Positions 37,507 through 43,853 of a DNA stretch of 64,000 nt are shown piece by piece; within the stretch, counting starts at the first letter, position 1, and every line of letters starts with the position of its first letter. The DNA is taken from assembly GCF_004354085.1 (NCBI RefSeq), contig NZ_SMSE01000004.1, positions 1 through 64,000 of the forward strand. Reading direction: 5' to 3'. A program made the position numbers and the translations under genes. The notes beneath the pieces are model-generated. The model was given only the letters and a program-made list of their open reading frames with translations. It had not been told where the DNA came from and ran no database searches. This stretch comes from Seongchinamella unica (GTDB lineage: Bacteria > Pseudomonadota > Gammaproteobacteria > Pseudomonadales > Halieaceae).

Positions 37507-38940
37507 ATGAAAAAAAGAAATCAGCGGTTGATCGGAACTGTCATCACAATGTTCTATATCGTGGGGATATTGATGGCCATGCACGCTGCGCTGACCACCC
37601 GCACACCGACGGGTGCCGTCGCATGGACCGTGTCTCTGGTCAGCATGCCGTTCGTGTCTGTTCCCGCCTACGCGGTATTCGGCAGAAACAGGTTCGAGGG
37701 TATGATCGAGGCATTCGAGGAGCGGGCCGACGAAATCGATCGCCTGCTGGCGGCGTACCGCCAGGATCTCGCCCCCTGGGAAGTTCCCGAAAGTGAAGCC
37801 CCGTCCTGGCACAACGCCGTGTACCGCTTGTCCGACAACCGGCTGGTCCGCGGCAATGCTGTGGAGTTGCTTATCGATGGCGATATGACTTTCGACAGCA
37901 TTTTAGAGGGTATTGCGTCGGCGGAGCGTTACATCCTGTTCCAGTTTTACATGATCCACGATGATGGTCTGGGACGGCGGGTCAAAGATGCACTGGCGGA
38001 GCGCGCCCGCGCAGGCGTCAAGGTGATAGTCCTCTATGACGAGGTCGGCAGTTCCGGACTACCCACGGCCTATGTCGAGGACATGCGCGCTGCCGGCATC
38101 GAGGTCAGTTCCTTCAGGCCTACCCAGGGCTGGCAGAACCGCTTCCAGCTGAATTTTCGCAACCATCGGAAAATGGTAGTTGTCGATGGGCGCACAGCCT
38201 GGATCGGCGGTCACAATGTGGGTGATGAATACCTTGGGCTGGATCCCGATTTCAGCCCCTGGCGTGACACCCACGTGAAGATAGACGGGCCCGCGGCATT
38301 GCAGGTTCAGCTGGCGATACTCTCTGACTGGTACTGGGCAACTCGCAATATTCCGGACGTGGACTGGACGCCTGTCCGCTCCGCCAGCGACAACCAGCAG
38401 GTCATGATTCTGCCAACGGCACCCACCGGGCAACTGGAGAGCGCCAGCCTGTTTTTCGTCGCCGCCCTGAACGGCGCACAAGAACGGATCTGGTTGTCCG
38501 CCCCCTACTTCGTCCCCGATGAAGCCGTGATGAAAGCCCTTCAGCTCGCCGCACTGCGCGGGGTGGATGTCCGGGTCATTACCACGGGCAAGCCCGACAG
38601 CCTGCCGGTCTACCTCGCTGCTTTCCACTATATCGATCAACTGCGAGGCCTGGGTATTCGTTTTTACGCCTACCAGCCGGGTTTCCTGCACCAGAAGGTC
38701 ATGCTGATCGATGACCGGATCTCCAGCGTCGGCACGCATAATTTCGACAACCGTTCCTTCCGCCTGAATTTCGAAGTGACAGCAGTGATTGCCGATGAGA
38801 AATTCGCCACCGGGATGGAGGCCATGTTCGAAAGGGACTTCGTCCACGCACAGCCAATTGATGCCGACGCCCTGGACCAGCGCCCCCTGTGGTGGCAGGT
38901 AGGGGTGAAGCTCGCCAGGCTGGCGGCGCCGGTACTGTAG
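37507..38940 (+). CDS. cls: Cardiolipin synthase
   Basis: Two N-terminal membrane helices (LIGTVITMFYIVGILMAMHAA; VSLVSMPFVSVPAYAVFG) precede two phospholipase-D HKD motifs: NHRKMVVVDGRTAWIGGHNVGDEYL and HQKVMLIDDRISSVGTHNFDNRSF. The enzyme condenses two phosphatidylglycerols to cardiolipin at the inner membrane. The length, 477 residues, is normal. The gene is preceded by the leader block shared with the mscS-like channel, which suggests a joint response, for instance to osmotic or membrane stress. Confidence 0.9.
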   Translation: MKKRNQRLIGTVITMFYIVGILMAMHAALTTRTPTGAVAWTVSLVSMPFVSVPAYAVFGRNRFEGMIEAFEERADEIDRLLAAYRQDLAPWEVPESEAPSWHNAVYRLSDNRLVRGNAVELLIDGDMTFDSILEGIASAERYILFQFYMIHDDGLGRRVKDALAERARAGVKVIVLYDEVGSSGLPTAYVEDMRAAGIEVSSFRPTQGWQNRFQLNFRNHRKMVVVDGRTAWIGGHNVGDEYLGLDPDFSPWRDTHVKIDGPAALQVQLAILSDWYWATRNIPDVDWTPVRSASDNQQVMILPTAPTGQLESASLFFVAALNGAQERIWLSAPYFVPDEAVMKALQLAALRGVDVRVITTGKPDSLPVYLAAFHYIDQLRGLGIRFYAYQPGFLHQKVMLIDDRISSVGTHNFDNRSFRLNFEVTAVIADEKFATGMEAMFERDFVHAQPIDADALDQRPLWWQVGVKLARLAAPVL

Positions 38941-38972: not shown

Positions 38973-40322
38973 TCAGCGGGCTGCGTTGTCAGAATATCGT
39001 TCCAGCCGTGAATACAGGGTACGCAGGCTTATCCCCAGGTCATCGGCTACGCGCTGCTTGTCGCCGCCATGCCGGGCAAGACTCGACTTGATCAGCACTT
39101 CTTCTGCCTGGCGCAGTGTAAAACCTGCGGGAATCGAGACGCTGTCCTGACTGTCGCCACCGGCTGCTGCACTGTCATCCTCCAGAGGCAGGTCCGGGGC
39201 GCCAATATCACGACGTGCGGTGGTGCAGGCTTTCTGGATAACGTTCCATAGCTGACGGACATTGCCGGGCCAATGGTAATTCAGCAGCGCTCTTTCGGCG
39301 TCTTTCTTCAGGGTCAGGCGCCGGTCGTTTGCCTCATCGAAGCGGGCCACGAAAAGGCGCGACAGTGCGACGATATCCTGCCCTCGCTCGCGCAGGGGAG
39401 GCACCCTGACCTCGAGCTGACTCAAGCGGTAAAAGAGGTCCTCCCGCAAGAGACCACTTCGAACCGCCTCGTGGGGATCCCGGTTGGTCGCGGCGATCAC
39501 GCGCGCCTGGTAGCTGTGATCCACCTCGCCACCCACCCGGCGAAACTGGCCGCTTTCCAGCACCCTCAGCAGTTTCACCTGGATGCCGTGGGGCATCTCG
39601 GTGATTTCATCAAGCAATAAGGTGCCCTGCCCCACGCGTTCGAAAATACCCAGGTGCTCTGCAACCGCACCACTGAAGCTTCCTTTTTCATGGCCAAACA
39701 ATTCGCTCTCAACCAGTTCGGTGGGAATCGCCGCGCAGTTGATGGCTTCAAACGGCTCAGCGCCATGTGCCGAATAGGCGTGCACTGCCTGTGCGACAAG
39801 CTCTTTCCCGGTGCCACTTTCACCGTGAATGCACAGCACCGCGTCACTCGATGCCGCCCGCCTGAGGAAGCGATACATGTCCTGCATGGGCGCCGAGCTG
39901 CCGTAAAGAGGCCCGAACTGGTCCATGGCCACCGTTTGCTGGCGGGCTTTTCCTTTTCGACTGGCCGCCTCGGCATCCTGATGGATATCCTCAAGCAGTT
40001 CGCTGACATACTTCAGCTCGGGTGGCTGGCGGAGGTACATACCAATACCCCGCGCCACGAGCCCCGCAAAACGCGACTGGGCCTTATGGTCGCCCACCAG
40101 GATGAGCTCACAATCCAGTGTGCCATGCAGTTGCGACACGATGGCCGGTTCGACCTGGCGAGCCGCCACGCACAGCAACACCGGTCCCATTTTTTCTAAT
40201 CGCGCCATCTCTGCCGTGCAGTCGGGCACGCCGGCAATCGCTTCGACGGCGAACCCCGCTTCCTGCAGCGGCTGCAACAGACCTGCGGCGTCCTCTCCCA
40301 GGATCAATGCCTTGTACGCCAT
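38973..40322 (-). CDS. Sigma-54-dependent activator with an atypical sensory domain
   Basis: The ATG at 40322 (MAYKALILGEDAAG) is chosen over an upstream ATG at 40367 because the receiver-like fold begins here. Residues ~1-125 look like a CheY-type domain, but no conserved phosphorylatable Asp is apparent (LLCVAARQVEP at the expected place). Residues ~140-370 form the AAA+ core: HGESGTGKELVAQAVH (Walker A), GTLLLDEI (Walker B) and the sigma-54 loop GSFSGA in place of GAFTGA. The C-terminus is a Fis-type HTH (DKQRVADDLGISLRTLYSRLE). It is divergent from a microprotein operon with a sigma-54 promoter, its likely target. Confidence 0.85.
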   Translation of the reverse strand: MAYKALILGEDAAGLLQPLQEAGFAVEAIAGVPDCTAEMARLEKMGPVLLCVAARQVEPAIVSQLHGTLDCELILVGDHKAQSRFAGLVARGIGMYLRQPPELKYVSELLEDIHQDAEAASRKGKARQQTVAMDQFGPLYGSSAPMQDMYRFLRRAASSDAVLCIHGESGTGKELVAQAVHAYSAHGAEPFEAINCAAIPTELVESELFGHEKGSFSGAVAEHLGIFERVGQGTLLLDEITEMPHGIQVKLLRVLESGQFRRVGGEVDHSYQARVIAATNRDPHEAVRSGLLREDLFYRLSQLEVRVPPLRERGQDIVALSRLFVARFDEANDRRLTLKKDAERALLNYHWPGNVRQLWNVIQKACTTARRDIGAPDLPLEDDSAAAGGDSQDSVSIPAGFTLRQAEEVLIKSSLARHGGDKQRVADDLGISLRTLYSRLERYSDNAAR

Positions 40323-40370
40323 CGTACGCTTCCTCTCCATGACGGGTTGTTTGGGCGGATAATACATTTT

Positions 40371-40388
40371 TGTGCATTTTTATGCACA
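40371..40388. promoter_or_regulatory. Inverted repeat, possible enhancer of the sigma-54 activator
   Basis: TGTGCAT-TTTT-ATGCACA is a perfect inverted repeat, followed by another TGCAT at 40392-40396. It lies 130 bp upstream of the -24/-12 promoter at 40504 and just before the activator's own start. Both place and spacing suit an upstream activating sequence. Confidence 0.5.
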
Positions 40389-40503
40389 TTTTGCATTTCC
40401 GGTCGCCCACTCGATATCGAGCATTGAACCACCCCTCCCGACCACAATATTTTTTATATGAATAACAACAGGTTACAGCCGATCTGTAGAGCCTTGCTGT
40501 CGC

Positions 40504-40519
40504 TGGCACACATGTTGCT
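40504..40519 (+). promoter_or_regulatory. Sigma-54 -24/-12 promoter
   Basis: TGGCAC-ACATG-TTGCT matches the sigma-54 consensus (TGGCAC-N5-TTGCW), including the GG at -24 and the GC at -12 with 10 nt between them. Transcription would start near 40530, about 26 nt before the ATG of the microprotein operon. It is the best sigma-54 promoter in the window and lies next to the sigma-54 activator gene. Confidence 0.75.
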
Positions 40520-40555
40520 GCATTACAGTAAACCCATCAAAGGCCAGGAGGCCCC

Positions 40556-40765
40556 ATGAGCAGCTTTGCCACCAACGCCGTCTGCGCGCACAAACCGCTG
40601 TGTGCTCGAGACTCCATCGAACAAGCCGTCGCTACACTGCAACGGGCGCTGGAGGAATCGACATCACAGGAGCCGGCCGGGTCAGCAGACCTCGACAACC
40701 TGCAGCTGAAGCTGAAACTGGTCCGGGTCCAACCGCGTGAGCATCCAGCGGAGGCGTCGTCGTGA
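40556..40765 (+). CDS. Microprotein 1 of a sigma-54-controlled operon
   Basis: AGGAGG lies 4-5 nt before the ATG. The 69-residue product has an N-terminal Cys pair (NAVCAHKPLC) and a helical, acidic middle (IEQAVATLQRALEES, then ADLDNLQLKLKLVRVQPRE). No signal peptide, membrane segment or known family is seen. It overlaps the next small ORF by 4 nt (GTGA) and follows the sigma-54 promoter at 40504. Two stacked signals (promoter and ribosome binding site) argue it is real. Confidence 0.65.
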   Translation: MSSFATNAVCAHKPLCARDSIEQAVATLQRALEESTSQEPAGSADLDNLQLKLKLVRVQPREHPAEASS

Positions 40766-40935
40766 GCAATTTTGAAACCGCGCTATCGGCCTATTTCGCC
40801 ACCCGAAACCACAATGCGCGTATCAGCAGGGAGCCCGCTTCGGTTCATGCCCGCAGAAAATCCCTGTTGCGCCGCGGTAAAATTGCCCAGGCTGCCGCGG
40901 TGCGGACCGCCACCAAGCTGAAGGCCAATCCGTAG
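40762..40935 (+). CDS. Microprotein 2 of a sigma-54-controlled operon
   Basis: A GTG start overlaps the TGA of microprotein 1 by 4 nt, which implies coupled translation. The 57-residue product is strongly basic (HARRKSLLRRGKIAQAAAVRTATKLKANP at the end), with an aromatic N-terminal patch (NFETALSAYFATRNH). The opening VSNFETAL resembles MSSFATNA of microprotein 1. It may bind nucleic acid or an acidic partner; this is inferred from composition only. No family is recognised. Confidence 0.6.
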   Translation: MSNFETALSAYFATRNHNARISREPASVHARRKSLLRRGKIAQAAAVRTATKLKANP

Positions 40936-41001
40936 CCCGGCGCCGCCCGAGACCGGCACGGGGCGGTCGACAGCGCTCCATGCAAAGCCCGGAACCCGGC
41001 A

Positions 41002-42762
41002 TCAGCCGGGTGCGCGTTGCTCCTCCAGCCGCGCAACCAGCCGGTCTTTCGGGTAGTAGAGCAAGGTGGCGATATCGATCAGGCTGTTGACGATTTTGCC
41101 GGCCTGCTCACTGTCGTTGATCAGGGATGTCGCCATCACCTGGGTGATTTCGCCGCCCAGCAACAGTTCGTTCACCCGACCCGAGACGAGTACATCGAGC
41201 TCGCTGGCTTTTTTCCGATATTTCTCCAGCTTGCGGATATGACGCAGCGGATTTTCCGACTCACTGGCGCGATGAATTTCGCGCATGATCTTGAGAATAC
41301 GCCGGCGAATCCGGTTGTACTCGCTCATTATGGCCGCGTTCCCCGAGCTCATGAACAACACGATGTTGTCGTGCAGCGGCTGCATACGCTTGACCGTACG
41401 CACCAGCTGCCGGTCGGCGATCAGGATGTTGCGCACCGCCTCAACGCTTTCCTCATCCAGTGCGAATTCACTCTGCAGGCGCGTGGCAAAGTCCAGTATC
41501 TCGCCATAAACAGACTTGATCCGGGTATGGTACAGCTCGTCAATATTAACCGGTACGGCCTCGCTGTTTCTTACCACGTCGCGCAGGCGGGCGCCGCTGT
41601 TGAGGTCCTGCCGATGAACGCTGAGCCCGTGGGTAATTGCCTTGTATCCGGCGTTCTGCAGTAATCTCAGGGACTCATCGAACAGCGCCTTGATGCCTGT
41701 CTGGGGGTAGGCCATGGACGCTTTGGTCAGGTAAACCGGCTGATCGATCTCGGGCTCGGGCTCCGGCACCTCCGGCACCAGCCAGCATACGATGGCGGCG
41801 ATTTTTTCGACAAAGCCCAGCAACAGGGCGGTGTTAATGACATTAAAGGCGGTGTGGTAGAGGGAGAGCGCCACCGGCACCGCCGAGGCCTCCACCCAGG
41901 GGGAAACACCCTGGGTGTGCTGCATAAACCAGTCAACCGCATTCAAGGATGGATAGAATACCAGCAGGGCCAGGATGACACCCAGCACATTGAAAATGAG
42001 ATGGGCCCGGGCCGCGCGAGTGGCCTGGTAGTTCGCCACCAGGGCGGCCAGATTTGCCGTAACCGTGGTGCCAATGTTCTGCCCCAGCACCATGGCTGCC
42101 GCCATATCAAAGGGTATCCAGCCTTCCCAGGACATCAGCAGAGTCAGGGCCATGGCGGCACTGGACGACTGCATAACCAGTGTCAGCAGGGCTCCCAGGG
42201 CAAGAAAAATCAGTACCGAAAGAAACCCCATATCGGTGTAGGCCGCCAGCGCAGCGAGCGCTTCCGGGCTCCCGCTGACATCCGGCACGGACTCCTTGAG
42301 GAACTGCAGCCCGATAAAGAGGACGGCGAAACCGATGATGAAGTAACCCCACTGCTGCCACTGGCGGTCTTCGCGCAATGTACAGATAAAACCCAGCCCC
42401 ACGAGTGGCAGGGCCAGCGCGCTCATGCTGAGCTTGAAGCCGACAATGGAGATAAGCCAGGCGGTCACGGTAGTGCCGATATTGGCCCCCATGATGACTC
42501 CGATGGCCTCCACCAGGGTCAGCAGGCCGGCGTTGGTGAAACTGACCACCATCAGCGTGGTGGCGGAAGAGGACTGGATAATCGCGGTAATGCTGAAGCC
42601 GGTGAGCACGGCCAGGAAGCGATTTGAGGTCGTGGTGGCGAGAACATTGCGCATCCTGTCGCCAGCCAGCTCGACAAGCGCGTCGCTCATCACACGCATT
42701 CCGTAGAGGAACAGGCCCAGGGCACCCAGCAGGGTCAGCAGATCGCTGAAACCGTAGTCCAC
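41002..42762 (-). CDS. Na/Pi cotransporter family protein with PhoU-like domain
   Basis: Residues from VDYGFSDLLTLLGALGLFLYGMRVM carry two QSSS repeats (ITAIIQSSSATTLMVVSF, then LVMQSSSAAMALTLLM), the hallmark of NptA/PNaS transporters, with about nine membrane segments. The last ~200 residues are a helical PhoU-like domain. It should import phosphate with sodium. The GTG at 42762 (just before this first segment) is preferred; a TTG at 42831 or a GTG at 42807 is possible but adds a Pro/Gly-rich extension. Confidence is for the gene, not the exact start. Confidence 0.85.
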   Translation of the reverse strand: MDYGFSDLLTLLGALGLFLYGMRVMSDALVELAGDRMRNVLATTTSNRFLAVLTGFSITAIIQSSSATTLMVVSFTNAGLLTLVEAIGVIMGANIGTTVTAWLISIVGFKLSMSALALPLVGLGFICTLREDRQWQQWGYFIIGFAVLFIGLQFLKESVPDVSGSPEALAALAAYTDMGFLSVLIFLALGALLTLVMQSSSAAMALTLLMSWEGWIPFDMAAAMVLGQNIGTTVTANLAALVANYQATRAARAHLIFNVLGVILALLVFYPSLNAVDWFMQHTQGVSPWVEASAVPVALSLYHTAFNVINTALLLGFVEKIAAIVCWLVPEVPEPEPEIDQPVYLTKASMAYPQTGIKALFDESLRLLQNAGYKAITHGLSVHRQDLNSGARLRDVVRNSEAVPVNIDELYHTRIKSVYGEILDFATRLQSEFALDEESVEAVRNILIADRQLVRTVKRMQPLHDNIVLFMSSGNAAIMSEYNRIRRRILKIMREIHRASESENPLRHIRKLEKYRKKASELDVLVSGRVNELLLGGEITQVMATSLINDSEQAGKIVNSLIDIATLLYYPKDRLVARLEEQRAPG

Positions 42763-43022
42763 TACCGTGTTACACCGGCCGTCTGGGCTGGCGACTGCAT
42801 CGGGCACCCAACTCCCGGGCGGGAGTCTCAACCCCCGGCCGCAGCGTAATACCCATCAGGTGGTTCTCTGTGCTCATGACGTCTTCAGTCGCCTCCAGGC
42901 TATCGGCTGATGTTACTTGGCTTTATTCGTTGTTAACAAGCCCATAAACGGCTGCGGTGGCGATTCATCAATACCAGTGCAGATGATTTAAAGTTTGCCC
43001 GAAATCGGCAATAATCCGCGCC

Positions 43023-43853
43023 ATGGCTGAACATTTTTTGCTCAGAAACATGAGCACCAACGAGAATATACCGCTGGTCGCGACATCGATCATCCTGGGC
43101 CGCCGCAAGGACTGCGAGATCGTGGTCGACTCCAGCGAGGCCTCGCGTGAGCATGCGCGCATCCGGGCAGAAGACGGACGCCTTACCCTGGAGGACCTGG
43201 GCTCTACCAACGGGACCATGCTCAACCGGCGGCGCCTGAGACAGCAGGAGCCACTGAGCGGGGGCGATATCATCTCCATTGGCCAGGTGCACTTCATGGT
43301 GGTGGCGCCGGGCAGCGATAGTCACATGACGGTCCTGGGTGGTCGGCTCGCCCGTGCCGACGACAATTACGTGCTCGATCAGGCCGACCCCAATGCTACC
43401 GGCTTGCGCATGCCCTTTCCCCTGCCGCCGGGCTGGACGACAACAGACGGTGTGTTTGACAATGGCCCGGCGAAGCGTAACCCGCAGGACATTGTCAGTG
43501 AGCAGATGGCAAGTCAGTCGATCGGCCAGGAGGGTGCCGATGGAGTCCTGATGATCGTCAGTGACAGGGGTCGCAATACGCTGTTTCCCCTGCGAGCCGG
43601 CAAAGCCGCCTGGGTGATCGGCCGTGCCGACGATTGCGATATAGCCATCTCCGATGCCACCATCTCTTGCGTACACGCGCTGATCACACGCGACGCAGGT
43701 CGATGGTCAATAGAAGACAAAAACTCCACCAATGGAACCCGATTGAACGGCAGGCGGGTCGATAAAGCCGCGCTGGATGACGGTGATAAACTGAATCTGG
43801 GTAAGGTGGACCTGCTGTTCAAATCGATCGAGTGCGCTTCCACGCCTGGCTGA
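43023..43853 (+). CDS. Protein with two FHA domains
   Basis: Two phosphothreonine-binding forkhead-associated domains: residues ~10-95 (IILGRRKDCEIVV, SREHARI, DLGSTNGTMLN) and residues ~190-275 (WVIGRADDCDIAI, SCVHALI, DKNSTNGTRLNGRRV). The first repeat keeps Arg/Ser/His/Asn of the FHA consensus; the second replaces Ser-Arg-x-His by Ser-Cys-Val-His. The ~90-residue linker is disordered in appearance. It likely acts as an adaptor for a Thr kinase; none is encoded in the window. It is convergent with purK. Confidence 0.85.
   Translation: MAEHFLLRNMSTNENIPLVATSIILGRRKDCEIVVDSSEASREHARIRAEDGRLTLEDLGSTNGTMLNRRRLRQQEPLSGGDIISIGQVHFMVVAPGSDSHMTVLGGRLARADDNYVLDQADPNATGLRMPFPLPPGWTTTDGVFDNGPAKRNPQDIVSEQMASQSIGQEGADGVLMIVSDRGRNTLFPLRAGKAAWVIGRADDCDIAISDATISCVHALITRDAGRWSIEDKNSTNGTRLNGRRVDKAALDDGDKLNLGKVDLLFKSIECASTPG

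Follow-up and report, generated by a model that had tools for sequence, protein, structure and literature searches.

A predicted sigma-54 circuit in Seongchinamella unica that probably drives two conserved microprotein genes as part of a stress-type regulon

Layout of the locus and the divergent activator

The locus lies within a 64,000-nucleotide stretch of the Seongchinamella unica genome, referred to below as the window, and consists of a sigma-54 activator gene and, divergent from it, a two-gene operon for microproteins of 69 and 57 amino acids whose frames overlap by GTGA. The initial annotation of this DNA had the coordinates and sequences of these genes right. The features are listed below, with G numbers standing for the genomes of relatives.

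38973-40367, minus strand: sigma-54 activator (bacterial enhancer-binding protein) with degenerate receiver, AAA+ domain (GSFSGA) and Fis-type HTH, by Pfam, tree and alignment
40371-40388, no strand: inverted repeat TGTGCAT-TTTT-ATGCACA, which overlaps the conserved enhancer; the exact repeat is not conserved
40373-40376, no strand: extra TGCA half-site beside the conserved enhancer
40383-40395, no strand: predicted upstream activating sequence TGCACATTTTGCA (TGCA-N5-TGCA), 13 bases, at -121 from the -24 element, recurring in G003, G006 and G005
40504-40519, plus strand: sigma-54 promoter TGGCAC-ACATG-TTGCT (-24/-12), predicted by motif and conserved in relatives
40546-40551, plus strand: ribosome-binding site AGGAGG of ORF1, conserved in G003 and G006
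40556-40765, plus strand: microprotein ORF1, 69 amino acids, by conserved frame and dN/dS
40762-40935, plus strand: microprotein ORF2, 57 amino acids, with a GTG start overlapping the ORF1 stop (GTGA), by conserved frame and dN/dS

The ATG of ORF1 is 36 bases downstream of the promoter. Genes for a Na/Pi cotransporter and a protein with two FHA domains (41002-43853) adjoin the operon, and a phospholipase D-type gene (37507-38940), presumably cardiolipin synthase-like, is close to the activator both in the window and in G003; it could belong to the same regulon as the microproteins.

Matches to Sigma54_activat (PF00158, 3.5e-60), AAA_lid_14 (PF25601, 2e-17) and HTH_8 (PF02954, 3.4e-10) identify the divergent gene product, by its domain composition, as a sigma-54 enhancer-binding protein of the NtrC superfamily, with the defining AAA+ domain and Fis-type HTH. 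Judged by the same sequence it is not an NtrC-type response regulator proper, which would carry a phosphorylatable Asp: Pfam gave no Response_reg match, and in an alignment with relatives the receiver-like N-terminus has Val/Cys at the Asp position, in keeping with the initial observation that no clear phosphorylatable Asp is present. Among the 25 of 26 NCBIfam models listed, all scored below their cut-offs; the activator reached 288.8 bits against the NtrC equivalog TIGR01818 (cut-off 558.6), 280.5 bits against the PEP-CTERM-box response regulator TIGR02915 (cut-off 502.6) and 259 bits against LuxO NF041946 (cut-off 800). At the place expected for the GAFTGA loop that contacts sigma-54, the protein does have the variant GSFSGA, but this is no peculiarity of it, as GSFSGA is the usual form among its relatives (14 of 17 rows of the wider activator group, the other three having GAFSGA). 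The true start is probably the ATG at 40322, after GGAGAGGAAG, rather than 40367.

The two microprotein genes

G003 and G006, two further genomes of the genus, also have both ORFs, so that, the window included, three genomes among 97 relatives carry them. Pairwise dN/dS is 0.13-0.34 for ORF1 and 0.27-0.32 for ORF2, values that indicate purifying selection but are rough because synonymous sites are near saturation. Third codon positions hold 46-51% of the differences in the two frames, and the Shine-Dalgarno sequence and the ORF junction (ATGA or GTGA) are retained in both relatives. By these signs of coding constraint, ORF1 and ORF2 are real genes.

The tally for ORF1 was four of 97 genomes, of which three were accepted and G034 (E 0.008) was dropped; a profile search of 140 family genomes gave eight, of which the same number, three, was accepted and five (G016, G042, G049, G055, G146) were dropped, and it yielded no further convincing ORF1. 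The dropped ORF1 matches had E 0.003 to 0.04, in frames of 114-808 amino acids by listing. For ORF2, searched at E up to 1, matches were found in six of the eight genus genomes and accepted in four, G005 being one of the rows of the query; seven weak matches (E 0.036 to 0.81), among them the sole ones in G001 and G007, were dropped, and the dropped match G006:C28 was read as DNA only.

In G005 a diverged ORF2-like frame of 62 amino acids stands beside the activator (hhalign probability 84.5%, p 6.9e-6), and ORF1 is lacking. The initial annotation had taken loss of the frames or of the promoter bases in close relatives as evidence against the circuit, and such loss is seen in part: G003 and G006 keep both, but G005 has neither ORF1 nor the GC of the -12 element. 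Behind the ORF2-like gene, G005 also has a 120-amino-acid ORF (L071:7769-8131) that matches nothing in Pfam or NCBIfam.

The ORF1 product is acidic (pI 5.5) and that of ORF2 very basic (pI 12). The AlphaFold model of ORF1 is mainly one helix, residues 18-36, at low confidence (pLDDT 61), and that of ORF2 has three helices (pLDDT 75); searching with the latter, Foldseek found two matches at a limit of E 10, neither of which reached 0.001. Neither microprotein matched a family in Pfam, NCBIfam or PHROG, those of CsbD, BON, PRC, BOF and SpoIIAA-like proteins included. Homology between the two was considered and rejected (hhalign probability 5.5% over 6 columns). The basic ORF2 protein could bind nucleic acid, ribosomes or ORF1.

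Promoter and candidate enhancer

The pattern TGGCACN5TTGCW has six sites in the 4.19-Mb genome of the window, against two for the reversed pattern. The TGGCAC-N5-TTGCT promoter before the first ATG, already recognized in the initial annotation, is one of the six and has, as a sequence, what defines a sigma-54 promoter, GG and GC ten bases apart; another of the six precedes a gene whose protein we take to be glutamine synthetase. TGGCAY-N5-TTGCT is kept at all three loci that carry both ORFs (window, G003, G006), and rpoN is present in 8/8 genus genomes. In G005 the -12 GC is replaced by GA, so the promoter there may be dead.

The inverted repeat TGTGCAT/ATGCACA had been proposed as the enhancer. 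It is present, but the conserved element is TGCA-N5-TGCA, which the right half of the repeat alone overlaps, and as this part alone recurs, the repeat itself was rejected in that role. A terminator reading of the repeat was also rejected, with one terminator-like site found against 1.3 expected in shuffles; the scan made for that reading showed no sigma-70-like promoter.

Upstream of the microprotein-type loci, TGCR-N5-TRCA lies at -121 (window), -123 (G003), -115 (G006, a weaker copy, TGCA-N5-TACA) and -121 (G005) from the TGG of the -24 element, and the four upstream regions have little else in common except promoter and ribosome-binding site. Two of these four loci, in G003 and G006, sit away from the activator, and the gene neighbourhood of the G003 copy differs from that of the window. 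Shuffling the 60 bases concerned produces such a palindrome with P 0.003-0.007 (0.006 for the window site). We examined 32 of the 45 relaxed sigma-54 sites in four genomes; all three that are microprotein promoters have the palindrome upstream, and it precedes none of the other 29. A strict enhancer-plus-promoter pattern matched in 9 of 390 genomes of the order, a count to be read with the consensus deriving partly from the same loci; in the window genome and G003 it hits the microprotein operon only, and in the flanks retrieved for its eight matches outside the genus no activator was found by motif (0/8). An earlier family-wide pattern with a loose promoter matched 60 of 140 genomes, was judged mostly chance and was set aside; its reversed control was unfair, since the word ACGT is less common than TGCA. 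As far as comparison of sequences can carry it, the conservation of frames, promoter, enhancer and spacing gives good support to the central claim of the initial annotation, that a sigma-54 circuit controls the two microproteins.

Relatives of the activator, their target genes and the proposed regulon

In a tree of 26 rows, the activators of the window, G005, G003 and G042, the last from another genus, form one clade (100/98), with the G005 protein closest to that of the window (65% identity). Each of the four activator genes is transcribed divergently from a sigma-54-like promoter that carries the palindrome, and what stands behind that promoter varies: both microproteins in the window; the ORF2-like gene and the 120-amino-acid ORF, with the -12 element damaged, in G005; a BOF-domain gene in the same layout, enhancer at -125, in G042; and a PRC-barrel gene, enhancer at -96, beside the activator of G003. 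In other parts of the tree, a palindrome of the form TGYA-N5-TRCA, near TGYANNTTTTRCA, is found before sigma-54 promoters of BON genes (G009, G021, G055 and G014, at -148/-149), a CsbD-like gene (G008, -144, 9 of 11 positions), a SpoIIAA-like gene (G041, -132) and an 87-amino-acid gene without a Pfam match over the cut-off (G051, -121). In 10 of 18 activator neighbourhoods, the window included, a sigma-54 site followed by an ORF is preceded by a palindrome of at least 9 of 11; the neighbourhood of G005 has the palindrome with a damaged promoter, and seven lack the arrangement (L031, L033, L072, L074, L080, L082, L084), L031 and L033 ending at contig ends. Among 33 sites, 14 score at least 9 of 11 for the enhancer, and those at L071 and L084, with no ORF behind, are probably chance. 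A pattern made from three BON promoters occurs only at those three places in 140 family genomes (reversed control 0); the word is rare, yet the match count is not independent evidence.

Two further observations concern these neighbourhoods. In the three BON promoters L158-L160 there seems to be a second half-site near -118 (TTTACA in two, TTACA in one), some 30 bp downstream of where the first palindrome begins. A family of 122-129 amino acids (L072:4807-5187, sigma-54 site 6054 of L074 on the minus strand, L077:2301-2669), without a Pfam match over the cut-off, stands before an MscS-type channel gene in G005 and is served in G005 and G006 by a sigma-54 promoter of its own, beside a second activator group; its MscS-linked members of 126-129 amino acids in these two genomes show no palindrome before their sigma-54 promoters, and a similar gene follows the BOF gene in G042.

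BON, CsbD, PRC-barrel, BOF and SpoIIAA-like proteins are general or envelope stress proteins. The initial view that function is not inferable is not supported, since relatives of the activator often have known stress-type genes next to them behind a similar enhancer. Taking together promoter, enhancer, coding frames, clade membership and the target genes of relatives, all established by comparison, we consider it likely that the microproteins are genus-specific outputs of a sigma-54 stress regulon, driven by the divergent activator via TGCA-N5-TGCA. We infer the following course, binding and activation included. The divergent gene would encode an AAA+ enhancer-binding protein that has lost its receiver phosphorylation site; the protein would bind the palindrome about 120 bp upstream of the promoter and loop to sigma-54 RNA polymerase at 40504-40519, turning on the two-gene mRNA, on which the GTGA overlap may couple translation of ORF2 to that of ORF1. 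The activator may also control its own gene from the site just ahead of its start, which is plausible given a distance of 15-60 bases from the palindrome to the two possible starts of that gene. Because the receiver has no Asp, the input would be a ligand, a partner or the amount of activator. The switching of bacterial pseudo-receivers is described as a mystery (PMC12632262, in part).

The genomes of the genus bear differently on how closely operon and activator belong together. The phospholipase D and FHA genes enclose the operon in G006, as they do in the window, and the activator and the Na/Pi transporter are missing from this interval, the best activator of that genome being a 43% homologue from another group. 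In G003 the operon is on a different contig from the activator, which is 4.4 kb from a phospholipase D gene 73% identical to that of the window, a proximity that supports its orthology to the window activator. G001, G002 and G007, absent from the tree, have no operon and, by E-value alone, no activator. Since the operon is unlinked in G003 and G006, the activator probably acts on it in trans too, not in cis alone. The same separation weighs on the idea that the microproteins are feedback partners of the activator, acting on its receiver-like domain or AAA+ ring in place of phosphorylation, as in PspA/PspF and HrpV/HrpS: the missing Asp of a working receiver and the small, divergent partner genes would suit it, and trans-acting inhibitors of sigma-54 activators are known (PMC7057263, in part), but a close activator is missing from G006, which has both microproteins, and the microprotein genes of G003 are on a separate contig from the activator. 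Moreover, in other relatives the same place is occupied by BON, PRC or BOF genes, whose products are, to our knowledge, not known as regulators, and we regard feedback as unlikely. The unlinked operons would also suit an active promoter served by a different activator, the neighbouring gene being a passenger; since a like palindrome is found in the activator's own intergenic region in all four clade members, this seems quite improbable. That the transcript is mainly a regulatory RNA like the Qrr RNAs under LuxO, with the ORFs secondary, is very hard to credit: the similar LuxO enhancer TTGCAWWWTGCAA does precede the sigma-54 promoter of a small RNA (PMC10162802, in part), but third positions change most, dN/dS is 0.13-0.34 in both frames, Shine-Dalgarno and ORF junction are conserved, and Rfam gave no match at E up to 1 over 40300-41050.

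The reading of the microproteins as outputs of a stress regulon can be extended. The activator group of Halieaceae and their neighbours would run a stress-type regulon of BON, CsbD-like, PRC-barrel, BOF and SpoIIAA-like genes, and the contribution of this genus, an acidic and a basic microprotein, would most likely be small stress proteins acting together. Such paired small effectors are suggested because the targets of relatives are taken as stress proteins and because control of the bacterial exterior has been put forward as a role of sigma-54 (PMC3162934, in part). Only tentatively do we go further and suggest that activators with degenerate receivers run a sigma-54 stress regulon in marine Halieaceae, in which the cassette is constant and the cargo is exchanged between species, the Seongchinamella cargo being a new microprotein pair that forms a two-part stress effector. 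Small stress proteins are usually placed under other sigma factors (SigB, RpoS, EcfG), and the present analysis suggests that in some of these marine bacteria they are under sigma-54, with some such activators having to sense a signal without phosphorylation. Two orphan microproteins gain a proposed regulon and a predicted enhancer, promoter and start point, and become directly testable.

An activator gene divergent from its target is common. Enhancer-binding proteins normally have their sites 100-150 bp upstream, where they assemble into oligomers and then remodel the closed complex of sigma-54 polymerase (PMC7057263, in part), and the layout, initially thought undescribed, follows this norm; the circuit type is ordinary, and layout and GSFSGA are ordinary for the clade. 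A literature search, with most subscription journals outside it, brought up no paper that we recognized as describing this circuit, and in the available main text of the family genome paper bearing the genus name (PMC10100682) sigma-54, enhancer and RpoN are absent. As far as this search reaches, the enhancer, the shared stress-type regulon and the two microprotein families are undescribed.

Among known systems, the BON, CsbD, PRC-barrel, BOF and SpoIIAA-like genes share with the operon a like enhancer and a sigma-54 promoter beside activator relatives, whereas the microproteins have no detectable homology to any of their products. LuxO-Qrr of Vibrio likewise combines a sigma-54 activator, TGCA-type palindromes TTGCAWWWTGCAA and very short transcripts, as far as described in part of PMC10162802, but the palindrome of the window has a spacer of 5, not 3, and its target codes for proteins. 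Closest in plan are enhancer-binding proteins of the NtrC/PspF type, with the same Sigma54_activat AAA+ domain, Fis-type HTH, GG/GC promoter and enhancer about 120 bp upstream, from which the system in the window differs in its receiver without Asp, its GSFSGA loop and its microprotein targets.
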